Below are positions 22,944 through 27,071 of a stretch of DNA of 39,062 nucleotides, piece after piece. Source of the DNA: Erysipelotrichaceae bacterium (lineage in GTDB: Bacteria; Bacillota_I; Bacilli_A; Erysipelotrichales; Erysipelotrichaceae); NCBI GenBank assembly GCA_022767445.1, contig JALENJ010000041.1, positions 1-39,062 on the forward strand, given 5' to 3'. Position numbers and translations under genes: made by a program. The notes beneath the pieces were generated by a model, which saw only the letters and a list, made by a program, of their open reading frames with translations, was not told where the DNA came from and made no database searches. Each line of letters starts with the position of its first letter. Positions within the stretch are counted from its first letter, which is position 1.

Positions 22944-25557
22944 ATGAGAAAGATAATAAAGATATTAGATAACAAATTAGAGAATCACATCTTACCATTC
23001 TTCTGGCAACATGGAGAAGATGAGAAGACCTTACGTGAATACATGAAGATCATCGACGAAAGTAACTGTCATGCGGTATGTATTGAGGCTAGACCACATC
23101 CTGACTTCTGTGGTGATAAATGGTGGTAGGATATGGATATCATTTTAGATGAAGCTAGAAAACGTGATATGAAAGTCTGGATACTCGATGACTCTCACTT
23201 TCCAAGCGGATATGCGAACGGTGCACTCAAGAATAAACCAAACACACTACGTAGACAAAGTATCTATACAAAGAAGATCCCTGTACATGCAGGTAAGAAG
23301 GTTTCGGTAGATATACGCAAGATATGCAAGAAACTTCCAACCTCAATGATGTGGGAGATTGTTAAACGGCAGATGAATAAAGGGGCAGATATCTTCGATG
23401 ATGATACCGTACTAGATGTATCCGTACATGTAAAAGGTGAAGACAAACCTATCTCCATCCCATATCATTTGCAAGGAAATAAACTATCCGTACAGATACC
23501 CGCTAATGCGGATATGTTGTATATCACAATCCTAACAAGAAATGCAGGTATCCATCGTGATTATATGAATATGATGGATGAAGAATCATGCAAGGTGTTA
23601 ATCGATACTGTATATGAAGCACATTATGCTCATTGCAAAGATGACTTTGACAAGACAATCCAAGGATTCTTTTCCGATGAACCAGAGCTAGGTAATGACT
23701 TTGATATACCATGGAGTAGAGACTTACAACAAGAAATGGAAGCTACCTTTGGTGATGATTGGAAGTTATATATGCCTATGTTGTTTGATAATCATTGTGA
23801 TGATAAACAAGTCGCTTATACAAGAGTCAAGTTTATGGATTCAGTTACCAAACTTGTAAAGAAATGTTTCTCTGAACAAATAGGCAACTGGTGCCAACAA
23901 CATGGCGTTTCCTATATTGGACATGTTATTGAAGATAACAACCAACATTGTCGAACAGGCTCAAGCTTAGGGCATTACTTTAGAGGACTTGCCGGACAAC
24001 ACATGGCAGGTATCGATGATTTCGATGGATAAGTAATTCCATTTAAGGAAGATGCACCAGCGGAGGATATCTTTAAGTGGATAGTGGTAGAGATGGAGAG
24101 TTCTACCATTACTGTTTAGGCGCATCTTTAGCTGCAATCGATCCAAAGAAAGAAGGCAGATGTATGTGTGAAATCTTTGGAAACTACGGTTGGTCAGAAG
24201 GCCCACGCCTAGAAAAATATCTTGCAGATCACTTTATGGTACAGGGCATCAATCACTTTGTACCACATGCATTCTTACCAAAAGCCTACCCAGATCCTGA
24301 TTGTTTTCCACACTTCTATGCTGGTGGACACAATCCACAATACAAAGCTTTTAGCCAAGTCATCTTATACATGAATCGTATCTGTAATCTGATCTTTGAT
24401 GGTAAAGCTGTATGTCATACAGCAGTGCTCTATCAAGCAGAACAAGAATGGATGGGTGAGTGTATGTTGAATCAAAAGATTCTACGTACACTCATGGAGA
24501 ATCAGATTACAGCACACATCATCCCGGAAGACGTATTTGATGATAACAACGAGTATCATACAAAATATGAAGAAGGAATACTCGTTGTAAACAACAACTA
24601 TTACAAAGAAATATATCATCCTCAAAATATATAACAGAAACACTCGCAAAGAATATCATCGAAATGACTAACCATGGTATTCATGTATATTTTGTGGATG
24701 GATATCCACAAGCAATTATTGGTGATGATGTACAAGGGTTATTAGAACAGGTCACAAGTAATTGTGAATGCATATCATTATCACATGTATCAAAACATGC
24801 ATGCAAGGATATTGTATTAGAAGCACACAACCATGGTATACGTGTATTCCATTACAAAGCTGATGAAGAAATATTATACTTCGTAAATGAAAGCAGAGAT
24901 TCATTCCAATCACAAGTGATGATTGATGGTGAAATGGATCTTGTTGGATATGATGCTTGGAATAACAAATTGATCACTGTGCCATACCATAAAGAAGGTG
25001 GTAAGATGATCTTTACATTATCGTTAAATTCTTGTCAGAGTATCATCTTGATTTGAAATGATGACTTATCTTTACAAGGTGAAACAATTCCAACTTCAGT
25101 CTTGAATGAAATCAATTTAACGGATAGTACAAAAATGTGGAAAGTCTCTTCCTGTAAAGCAATTGATTATCCAAGATTTACACAGGAAGAGATTACAAAT
25201 AACCTACAACCATTCAGTGATAAACATAAGACTTTCTCTGGACATATTGCCTATACAACAGATGTGGATATCCCAACAGAGTGGATTGAGGCTGTCAATC
25301 GAGGAAAGAAAGTCTATGTGAATATCGAAAATGCTGGAGAGGATGTAGAACTATTCTGGAATGGACAAAGTCTAGGTATACAGGTTCTAGCTCCGTTTAG
25401 CTTTGATGTAACAAGGTACTTATCTAAAGTTAAAAATAGTTTATATATAGAGGTAGCGTCGAGTCTTGAACGTGAGCGCAAGGTAAATAAGAAATCACAC
25501 GAGAAGACAGGAATTACAGGTAATGTGGTTGTTCAATTGATGTCTGAACCGATGTAA
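22944..25557 (+). pseudogene. Glycoside hydrolase pseudogene (GH106-like)
   Basis: One long glycoside-hydrolase gene broken by four lesions. An amber codon lies at 23127-23129 (KWW, stop, DMDIILDEA, no frame change). A frameshift at about 24030-24077 joins AGIDDFDG to DGEFYHYCLG. A second frameshift lies at about 24610-24634, after which SKYITETLAKNIIEMTNHG continues. A TGA lies at 25054-25056 in frame. The pieces together give about 860 codons: HILPFFWQHGEDEKTLREYM and VWILDDSHFPSGYANG near the start, EIFGNYGWSEGPRLEKYLAD and NHFVPHAFLPKAYPDPDC in the middle, and a beta-sandwich tail. This resembles the uncharacterised GH106-like hydrolases of gut Firmicutes that attack rhamnose- or uronate-containing glycans. 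The lesions look recent because the rest is well conserved. No good ribosome site is visible. Confidence 0.88.
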
Positions 25558-25601
25558 ATAGTTATACAGAACAAAAAAATAAAAAAAGTTGATAATCTTT
25601 G

Positions 25602-25630
25602 TTGACATGTTGGTTAGTGTTTGCTAACAT
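25602..25630 (+). promoter_or_regulatory. Strong promoter of the sRNA gene
   Basis: TTGACA (25602-25607), exact 17-bp spacer, TAACAT (25625-25630). Expected start near 25637. The -10 and spacer are covered by a palindromic operator. Confidence 0.75.
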
Positions 25631-25649
25631 ACAGTTAGCACAGGCTAAC
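25613..25649. promoter_or_regulatory. Twin palindromic operators, 21 bp apart
   Basis: Two copies of GTTAG-N6-CTAAC, at 25613-25628 and 25634-25649, start exactly 21 bp apart (two helical turns). The inner halves also form TGCTAAC-N5-GTTAGCA (25622-25640). The first copy overlies the -10 and the second the start site, a repressor geometry. The half-site is loosely reminiscent of DtxR/MntR-type metal sites, but the regulator is not known. Confidence 0.65.
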
Positions 25650-25863
25650 TGATGTCTCACTCTTTCCATCACACACTCCTTTATGCATCAGTACCCTGCG
25701 TGTTCCGGAGTCCAAATACTAGTCATGGGCAGACTGGTATACTCTAATTGACATAAATCCGGAAGTTTCATGCATATCCGTGTCCTCCTCAAATTACACA
25801 GGTATATGCGAAATAATAAAGAATATTGTAAGGACGGGGCATCCAAGCAATATTCTTTTTTTT
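25637..25863 (+). ncRNA. Candidate trans-acting small RNA, about 227 nt
   Basis: A transcript from the promoter at 25602 to the terminator at 25863 with no plausible ORF. Stem 1: ACTGATG (25648-25654) with CATCAGT (25686-25692), enclosing a pyrimidine-rich 31-nt loop with CTCCTTT (25676-25682). Stem 2: TTCCGG/CCGGAA (25703-25708, 25759-25764) enclosing ATACTAGTC/GACTGGTAT (25716-25724, 25732-25740). Stem 3: GCATAT-CC-GTGT with ACAC-GG-ATATGC (25772-25809), whose loop is CCTCCTCAAATT (25784-25795). CTCCTTT and CCTCCT complement the AAAGGAG and AGGAGG ribosome sites common in this window, so it probably represses translation of target mRNAs. Not matched by me to a named RNA family. Confidence 0.6.
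25818..25863 (+). terminator. Terminator of the sRNA gene
   Basis: AAAGAATATTG (25818-25828) with CAATATTCTTT (25848-25858), then T-run to 25863. An inner GGA/TCC extends the hairpin. Confidence 0.85.
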
Positions 25864-25880
25864 ATGTTTAGGTATAAGAA

Positions 25881-25905
25881 AACCACAAAGGTTTACTTTG
25901 TGGTT
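25881..25905 (-). terminator. Terminator of the 67-aa gene
   Basis: AACCACAAAG (25881-25890) with CTTTGTGGTT (25896-25905); on the minus strand it is followed by TTCTT. Confidence 0.75.
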
Positions 25906-25913
25906 GGAGGGAA

Positions 25914-26117
25914 CTATTTGTGATTTAATTTAGATACTTGTGCTGATTGTTTTAGTCTTGCTTTGGCTTGTTCTACGCTTTCATTATCTTTTGTAAAGAA
26001 TTTGTTGATAAAGAAATCGGAGACTTTGTTGTATGTGTTGATAGCTGTTTTCTCTGTTTTGTTGTAAGTATCTATAACCATTTCGGCAATATTTTCGTTT
26101 GTTTCGATTAATGACAT
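25914..26117 (-). CDS. Small conserved hypothetical protein, 67 aa
   Basis: A 67-aa cytoplasmic helical protein with SLIETNENIAEMVIDTYNKT, VSDFFINKFFTKDNE and a final EQAKARLKQSAQ amphipathic helix. Similar tiny proteins with a K-T-E-K-x-V-x-x-x-Y repeat and TKxGExVEEAKxRL ending recur in Firmicutes, but no function is known to me. AAGGAGG on the minus strand (complement 26126-26132) is optimally placed for ATG 26117. It has its own terminator and a promoter sharing a 14-bp inverted repeat with thiT. Confidence 0.75.
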   Translation of the reverse strand: MSLIETNENIAEMVIDTYNKTEKTAINTYNKVSDFFINKFFTKDNESVEQAKARLKQSAQVSKLNHK

Positions 26118-26173: not shown

Positions 26174-26250
26174 ACAACACAATCATAGAAATGTGTTGAT
26201 TTGTTATTTTATATTTATGTATGCATGGTTACGTGGTATGATTGTGTTGT
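26174..26250. promoter_or_regulatory. Inverted 14-bp element shared by two divergent promoters
   Basis: ACAACACAATCATA (26174-26187) and TATGATTGTGTTGT (26237-26250) are perfect inverted copies 49 bp apart. On the plus strand TGGTATGAT (26234-26242) is an extended -10 for the TPP-riboswitch transcript. On the minus strand the other copy gives TATGAT for the 67-aa gene. Confidence 0.6.
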
Positions 26251-26321
26251 GAACAGGGGTGCATATTTGCTGAGAAAAACCCTTATCACCTGATCTAGGT
26301 AAAGCTAGCGTAGGGAGTTCA
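26250..26321 (+). promoter_or_regulatory. TPP riboswitch (THI element)
   Basis: Conserved thi-box order: P1 TGAAC (26250-26254), GGGGTGC, the pyrimidine-sensor loop GCTGAGA (26269-26275), ACCCTTATCACCTGAT, GCTAGCGTAGGGA and P1' GTTCA (26317-26321). It binds thiamine pyrophosphate and controls the thiamine transporter gene directly downstream. Confidence 0.93.
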
Positions 26322-26358
26322 GTCTTTTTAATTCCTTACGCCTTCAAAATGGAGGTGT
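26308..26358 (+). promoter_or_regulatory. Riboswitch expression platform (translation type)
   Basis: GCGTAGGGA (26308-26316) can pair with TTCCTTACGC (26332-26341). The overlapping alternative ACGCCTTC (26338-26345) pairs with GGAGGTGT (26351-26358), hiding the thiT ribosome site. There is no T-run, so control should act on translation. Confidence 0.6.
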
Positions 26359-26366
26359 ATTTTTTT

Positions 26367-27071
26367 ATGAAGAATGGTCAGATTCAAAAGATTGCGTATA
26401 TGGCAATCTATATGGCACTGTATGTTGTGCTAAAGATGGTAGGTAACTTAATACCTATCCTACAGATGCCAAATGGAGGTTCTATTGAGTTGGAGTTAAT
26501 TCCTTTGATGATTGCCTCGTATCACCTTGGTTGGAAGTATGGAGCACTGTGTGGTTTAGCTTCCTTTGTACTAACAATCGCATTAGGATTTCCGGTGTAT
26601 TTTGTTCATCCAATACAGATTGTTTTGGACTATGTACTACCTATCTGTAGTGTAGGAATGGTTTCTTTGTTTAAACCATTTATCCATGCAAGTAAGTCTG
26701 TCGTTGTTGGTGTATTAACTGTGATTGGATTATGTGCTGGATATGCAGTGTATGTATCCTATGGCAAGAATATACAATCGATTCTCATTGCGATTGGACT
26801 AGTTGTTGTACTTGTGTTACTTGGAATTTTCTTAACAAGTACAAAAGAACACTTTGGTATTGTTGTAGTGATGGTAATTAAGTATCTATCCACTGTATTA
26901 TCAGGTGCTTACTTTTGGGCGGATGGAGTCGCTGCAGGAAGTCTTCCGGCTTGGACTTTCTCTTTGACATATAATTTATGGTATAACTTGGTAACGATGA
27001 TGATATGTCTAGTCGTTGTACCTATTCTAATGAGTCGTATTCATATGGCAGGTATTCGGGTATTGCATTAG
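26367..27071 (+). CDS. thiT: Thiamine ECF transporter S-component
   Basis: 234 aa, hydrophobic throughout. The thiamine-binding family motif region reads GGSIELELIPLMIASYHLGW then KYGALCGLASFVLTIALG, and HPIQIVLDYVLP; the C-terminus keeps YFWADGVAAG and SLTYNLWYNL. Together with a shared EcfAA'T module (not in this window) it imports thiamine. It is about 40 residues longer than usual ThiT because of an extra hydrophobic stretch at about 120-160. ATG 26367 is chosen because GGAGG (26351-26355) fits it; an in-frame ATG at 26349 overlaps that site. TPP-riboswitch controlled. Confidence 0.92.
   Translation: MKNGQIQKIAYMAIYMALYVVLKMVGNLIPILQMPNGGSIELELIPLMIASYHLGWKYGALCGLASFVLTIALGFPVYFVHPIQIVLDYVLPICSVGMVSLFKPFIHASKSVVVGVLTVIGLCAGYAVYVSYGKNIQSILIAIGLVVVLVLLGIFLTSTKEHFGIVVVMVIKYLSTVLSGAYFWADGVAAGSLPAWTFSLTYNLWYNLVTMMICLVVVPILMSRIHMAGIRVLH

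Follow-up and report, generated by a model that had tools for sequence, protein, structure and literature searches.

What does the intergenic segment at positions 25602-25863 (plus strand) specify within the window, the 39,062-nt stretch of Erysipelotrichaceae DNA analyzed here, and what might its product do? The sequence-only reading of this DNA had proposed a new small RNA (sRNA) with a consensus promoter, three stem-loops and a terminator in a 227-nt unit, no open reading frame (ORF), and two loops complementary to Shine-Dalgarno (SD) sequences. All of these claims were borne out, and comparison with related genomes confirmed the segment as a predicted free-standing RNA gene with its own promoter and terminator and a transcript of ~227 nt that forms three stem-loops. 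To that reading our analysis adds metal-type operators, a bias of the candidate targets towards iron and iron-sulfur (Fe-S) proteins, and coverage of the start codon by the first loop. We consider it probable that the product is a trans-acting small RNA that is repressed by a metal, most likely iron, and that serves in iron sparing.

The gene begins with a sigma-A type promoter (TTGACA-17-(TG)TAACAT, 25602-25630, plus strand), in which TTGACA (25602-25607) is separated by a 17-nt spacer from TAACAT (25625-25630), the latter preceded by TG, giving 10/12 matches. As 6 promoters of this kind were found versus 8.4 expected by shuffling, a single one is not above chance; the credibility of this promoter rests on its conservation, with -35 and -10 elements that are recognizable in congeners, and not on its sequence match alone. 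The transcript (25637-25863, plus strand) was delimited by the -10 element at its start and by the T-run at its end. When folded, RNA 25637-25865 has an energy of -59.6 kcal/mol (z = -3.27), and 0/200 shuffled sequences were equally stable. SL1 (25638-25701, plus strand), which is supported by the fold, the homologs and arm-swap covariation, has an open loop of 29 nt (25656-25684) that contains CUCUUUCCAUCACACACUCCUUU. Within this loop, CUCUUUCC (25660-25667) and ACUCCUUU (25675-25682) are complementary to an SD plus start codon; the complement of the loop reads AAAGGAGTGTGTG-ATG-GAAAGAG and thus spans the start codon too. SL2 (25703-25763, plus strand, boundaries approximate) is a variable hairpin with GGGCA (25727-25731) in its apical loop, and SL3 (25772-25809, plus strand; loop sequence CCUCCUCAAAUU) carries the predicted seed, GUCCUCCU, at the 5' side of its loop (25782-25789). 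The intrinsic terminator (25819-25863, plus strand) consists of the stem AAGAATATTG/CAATATTCTT followed by 8 T residues (25856-25863), and has GGGCA (25837-25841) in its loop. A simple terminator scan did not detect it because the stem contains an internal loop; the homologs do show the hairpin plus T-run. GGGCA is retained in the SL2 and terminator hairpin loops of most species, and a protein site or a kissing partner are guesses as to its role. Rfam 15 scans of the region, at both permissive and gathering scores, returned no family for the sRNA; the only element matched, both in the window and at one homolog locus, was the neighboring TPP riboswitch.

The same layout is present, amid differing neighbors, in 17 congeneric species (Solobacterium-like Erysipelotrichaceae MAGs), which corresponds to a recognized copy in 17/70 genomes of the genus by the methods used. 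A DNA search of 60 relatives gave matches restricted to the promoter and SL1, and reading of the loci revealed the full layout in five congeners. A pattern scan of named genomes and two-loop pattern searches raised the total to 13 species, and a promoter-SL1 sequence model (R1) added four loci (L134, L136, L137 and L141). These four, of which L134 is more diverged, also possess the SL3 and terminator modules, which are absent from the R1 model. The carriers are uncultured, Solobacterium-like Erysipelotrichaceae of rumen and gut origin. Two matches from a contig search (L073 and L074) were dismissed as chance. Diverged, operator-driven units with CTCCTT and TTCTCCT stretches were also seen beside a CsoR-like gene in two genomes (L147 in G007 and L152 in G068), and these may be fast-evolving versions of the sRNA.

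Covariation of the stems, a check suggested by the earlier reading, was evident in the homologs. The SL1, SL3 and terminator stems were compared in eight representative species, where they differ in sequence and yet still pair. RNAalifold, applied to a plain MAFFT alignment of the homologs, found no structure, as the divergence of the stems defeats the alignment; an alignment-free arm-swap test took its place. Native arm pairs have energies of -17.0, -12.1 and -15.1 kcal/mol for SL1, SL3 and the terminator, respectively, versus -8.7, -7.4 and -6.9 kcal/mol for swapped arms, such that joining a 5' arm to the 3' arm of another species costs ~5-8 kcal/mol on average. For each hairpin 1/20,000 arm-swap permutations equaled the native pairing (p ~1e-4 each). 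The loops are constant: GUCCUCCU in the SL3 loop is invariant in 13 aligned homologs, and the SL1 loop core CUCUUUCC-N-CACUCCUUU is nearly invariant. Judging from these comparisons, the structure of the sRNA is under selection. Loops that hardly vary on stems that evolve rapidly make this RNA a clean natural experiment in which features an SD-targeting sRNA has to keep.

The loops are complementary to SD sequences, and AGGAG or GGAGG cores are frequent 5' of the window's genes. The iron hypothesis was recorded before any target search was made. Candidate targets were defined in 12 sRNA-carrying genomes as starts with the SD GAGGAGGAC, a perfect complement of the SL3 loop, located 1-9 nt before ATG; the survey comprised SD patterns plus selected stretches, and translations of the target starts were annotated by means of Pfam and NCBIfam, longer stretches being used to check cysteine motifs. 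Iron or Fe-S proteins account for 17/38 of these starts, a count drawn from related and hence non-independent species and from assignments made with knowledge of the set. They include rubrerythrin (three species), SufU-like (two) and hydrogenase/NuoG-like (two) proteins, a large Fe-S flavoprotein (two species) and three aldo/keto reductases with C-terminal cluster motifs, as well as an RnfB-like protein, a PreA-like oxidoreductase, IlvD, an iron alcohol dehydrogenase and a FadH/OYE-type Fe-S flavoenzyme. A control SD, GAGGAGGT, in the same genomes preceded such proteins in 4/52 cases as classified by sequence reading plus spot checks, without a full Pfam scan (Fisher p = 5e-5). GAGGAGGAC starts in 12 sister-family genomes, where the sRNA was not found by non-exhaustive DNA and model searches, yielded 3/38 as read by eye (p = 2e-4). 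With one count per family, the comparisons become 10/31 vs 4/48 (p = 0.008) and vs 3/34 (p = 0.02). Thus the exposed SL3 loop appears to carry a seed that matches sites of translation initiation on iron-protein mRNAs. Two leaders in the window's own genome are predicted to pair with SL3, that of rubrerythrin over 12 nt (-24.3 kcal/mol) and that of the RnfB-like protein over 10 nt (-19.3 kcal/mol). No target was common to all species among the 12 sRNA-carrying genomes.

Could the RNA instead be a metal-controlled mimic of the 16S anti-SD that represses a wide range of SD-rich mRNAs whatever their function, its iron bias being incidental? The streptococcal csRNAs and the Listeria LhrC RNAs provide a model for such a molecule. 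Both loops resemble the 16S anti-SD tail, the complement of SL1 is simply an SD plus AUG, and starts with AAGGAGTG, few of which were examined, precede genes of mixed functions with no clear theme. We nevertheless regard this explanation as unlikely, since iron and Fe-S proteins are enriched for the exact SL3 match and not for another SD, nor in the sister family, and since iron genes and other metal genes have the operator dyads of the sRNA as well. As to SL1 itself, a search of five genomes for one conserved target of its whole loop (GGAGTGTGATGGAAAGA, <=3 mismatches) was abandoned, as it returned mostly the sRNA's own complement and chance sites. A fair match in the window's own genome is a CsoR-family repressor gene (L065; G000:C30:9303, minus strand), whose start can pair with the SL1 loop across SD and AUG (-25.7 kcal/mol).

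The control of the sRNA was examined through its promoter, which in the homologs overlaps with one or two GTTAG-N6-CTAAC dyads whose half-sites have the DtxR/IdeR geometry. In the window, dyad 1 (GTTAGTGTTTGCTAAC, 25613-25628) lies in the -35/-10 spacer and overlaps the -10 element, and dyad 2 (GTTAGCACAGGCTAAC, 25634-25649) extends over the start site and the SL1 5' strand. Most homologs have dyad 1, a few of them in weakened form, and only some have dyad 2. Inspection for a Fur box (a TGATAAT-N-ATTATCA palindrome) over the promoter found the GTTAG-N6-CTAAC dyads instead. The site for one IdeR/DtxR dimer is TTAGGNNNNCCTAA, with the half-site consensus TTAGG-N4-CCTAA (PMC8464063). The spacing and the TTAG/CTAA arms of the sRNA dyad agree with it, and the inner G/C pair is usually replaced, giving TTAG(T/C)N4(A/G)CTAA versus the canonical TTAGGN4CCTAA. 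In the same genome the dyad pattern recurs upstream of a ZnuA-type metal-binding protein gene, nrdI and an ABC exporter gene, with the Fur/PerR-like and rubrerythrin genes nearby, and a close version of it lies on the TTGACA promoter of feoA. A promoter-plus-dyads model located such sites in other genera at feoA (in two), nrdI and CydCD-like ABC genes. Because of the dyad geometry, the dyads at metal genes and the presence in the genome of one detected DtxR-family protein, which NCBIfam classifies as MntR-like, the repressor of the sRNA probably belongs to the DtxR/MntR family.

The dyad is non-canonical and a TTAG-N6-CTAA dyad was not found near the mntR-like gene, so manganese or another regulator is possible. 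In the manganese version, an MntR-type repressor would make the sRNA responsive to manganese and not to iron, as for RsaC of S. aureus, with a different physiological output. The MntR-like character of the sole DtxR-family protein found and the dyads preceding a ZnuA/MntA-type transporter gene and nrdI favor this view, but feoA bears dyads in this genome and in two other genera, and the candidate targets are iron and not manganese proteins; we therefore judge it improbable.

A third explanation, that the RNA serves the downstream gene as its 5' leader, attenuator or riboswitch and does not act in trans, takes its appeal from a structured RNA that ends in a terminator and sits upstream of genes. 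However, the genes 3' of the sRNA vary with the species (thiT with a TPP riboswitch, a 6-phospho-beta-glucosidase gene, lipoprotein genes and others), and in the window a gene on the opposite strand intervenes. Since the neighbors differ among species, the sRNA is not the leader of one gene family, and the leader or riboswitch reading, to which we attach very little probability, was rejected.

Coding potential was also assessed. The ORFs over the sRNA are mechanical only (31 aa on the plus strand at 25652; 36 aa at 25562-25672 and 52 aa at 25688-25846 on the minus strand). No plus-strand ATG position is conserved among 17 homologs, and the minus-strand frame that starts AAAGGAGTGTGTGATGGAAAGAG meets a stop within ~6-16 codons in several homologs and has lost its start in L006. 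A conserved small ORF, which the earlier reading had named among the findings that would speak against it, was sought in the homologs and not found. It is thus scarcely credible that the segment encodes a small protein or represents an antisense promoter region: the minus strand does read SD-ATG-GAAAGAG in many homologs, but its short-lived frame, the unconserved plus-strand ATGs and the covarying stems led us to reject this reading.

The iron-sparing interpretation can be cast as a working model. When the metal is plentiful, a DtxR/MntR-type regulator would occupy the GTTAG-N6-CTAAC dyads over the -35/-10 region and the start site and keep the gene off, and when it is scarce the ~227-nt RNA would be produced. 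The SL3 loop GUGUCCUCCUC would then pair with the GAGGAGGAC(AC) SD sites of iron and Fe-S mRNAs and block ribosome binding, a translational repression that we infer from target complementarity; induction on metal loss, the identity of the repressor and the fate of the bound mRNAs are likewise presumed. Candidate mRNAs are those for rubrerythrin and the RnfB-like protein in this genome and, in relatives, those for SufU-like, hydrogenase/NuoG-like, IlvD, Fe-alcohol dehydrogenase and Fe-S aldo/keto reductase proteins. The SL1 loop, matching an SD plus AUG, may provide a second contact, with specificity residing in SL3. The proteins turned off would be dispensable iron proteins. Rubrerythrin, the RnfB-like protein, SufU-like proteins and hydrogenase are testable targets for iron rationing in gut anaerobes.

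RyhB, FsrA, IsrR and MrsI are iron-sparing RNAs that have little or no sequence in common (PMC9410917, PMC9294342, PMC11188477); the sRNA resembles them in its proposed function, and homology to them was not detected. The closest in layout is IsrR of Staphylococcus (PMC9410917), whose promoter is regulated by metal through two operator boxes, as is predicted here; like the present RNA it has three stem-loops followed by a terminator, several single-stranded C-rich regions (two of them in loops) and genus-wide conservation. IsrR differs in having Fur boxes in place of DtxR-like TTAG-N6-CTAA dyads and in its H1 and H2 stems, which are conserved with little covariation (PMC9410917), whereas here the stems diverge and the loops are constant. 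Its targets, predicted and tested, are mRNAs of Fe-S enzymes (PMC9410917), and those of the present RNA are predicted from sequence. The closest in control is MrsI of Mycobacterium, which has an IdeR (DtxR-family) site near its start and, as is proposed for the present RNA, is iron-sparing, with an apical-loop seed and iron-protein targets such as bfrA (PMC11188477); however, MrsI is actinobacterial, ~100 nt long and has one 7-nt seed loop, whereas the Firmicute RNA is longer and has two anti-SD loops. FsrA of Bacillus subtilis and RyhB are also iron-sparing, and RyhB analogs control similar transcripts, but both are under Fur (PMC9294342), and the Rfam scan of our sRNA showed no homology to them. 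RsaC of S. aureus is under a DtxR-family repressor, MntR, as the present RNA probably is, but it is cut from the mntABC 3' UTR and functions when manganese is scarce (PMC9294342), whereas the present RNA has its own promoter and terminator. A 2022 review (PMC9294342) names no sRNA that is controlled by DtxR itself; a suggested case is MrsI with IdeR. Our literature searches found no sRNA of the iron-sparing kind described for this gut lineage. The locus would add an apparently independent instance of iron sparing by RNA, and it points to a switch of the DtxR rather than the Fur type.

In a second genus (g53; L139, L140, L142 and L143), a double GTTAG-N6-CTAAC operator is followed by a different structured noncoding unit, which in the four species has CU-rich stretches (GUCUCCUCAUCUUU and CUUUCCUUUUA) and CU-rich loops (GUCUCCUCAUCUUU and GUCUUUCCUUUUAA). 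This unit is likely an analogue of the sRNA and possibly a remote homolog. A broader and rather doubtful conjecture is that DtxR-type-controlled, SD-mimicking iron-sparing RNAs replace Fur-controlled ones in Erysipelotrichales, with the same double operator driving at least two RNAs of unrelated appearance in two genera and the repeated GGGCA loops binding a protein partner.

The sRNA unit is located between a decayed glycosidase-like gene and a small opposite-strand gene. The former (22944-25557, plus strand) has an in-frame TAG and TGA as well as frame changes, and its last piece resembles a glycosyl hydrolase family 2 sugar-binding domain at a score just under the curated cut-off. The latter (25914-26117, minus strand) encodes a 67-aa protein with no Pfam match; its leader, AAGGAGGACAT, is also complementary to the SL3 loop, and a terminator-like hairpin (25881-25905) is convergent with the sRNA. 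Further downstream (26245-27068, plus strand), a TPP riboswitch (Rfam RF00059, 72.7 bits) precedes the gene of a Thia_YuaJ-family thiamine transporter, and the closest relative, L120, has an identical TPP riboswitch sequence 3' of its sRNA.
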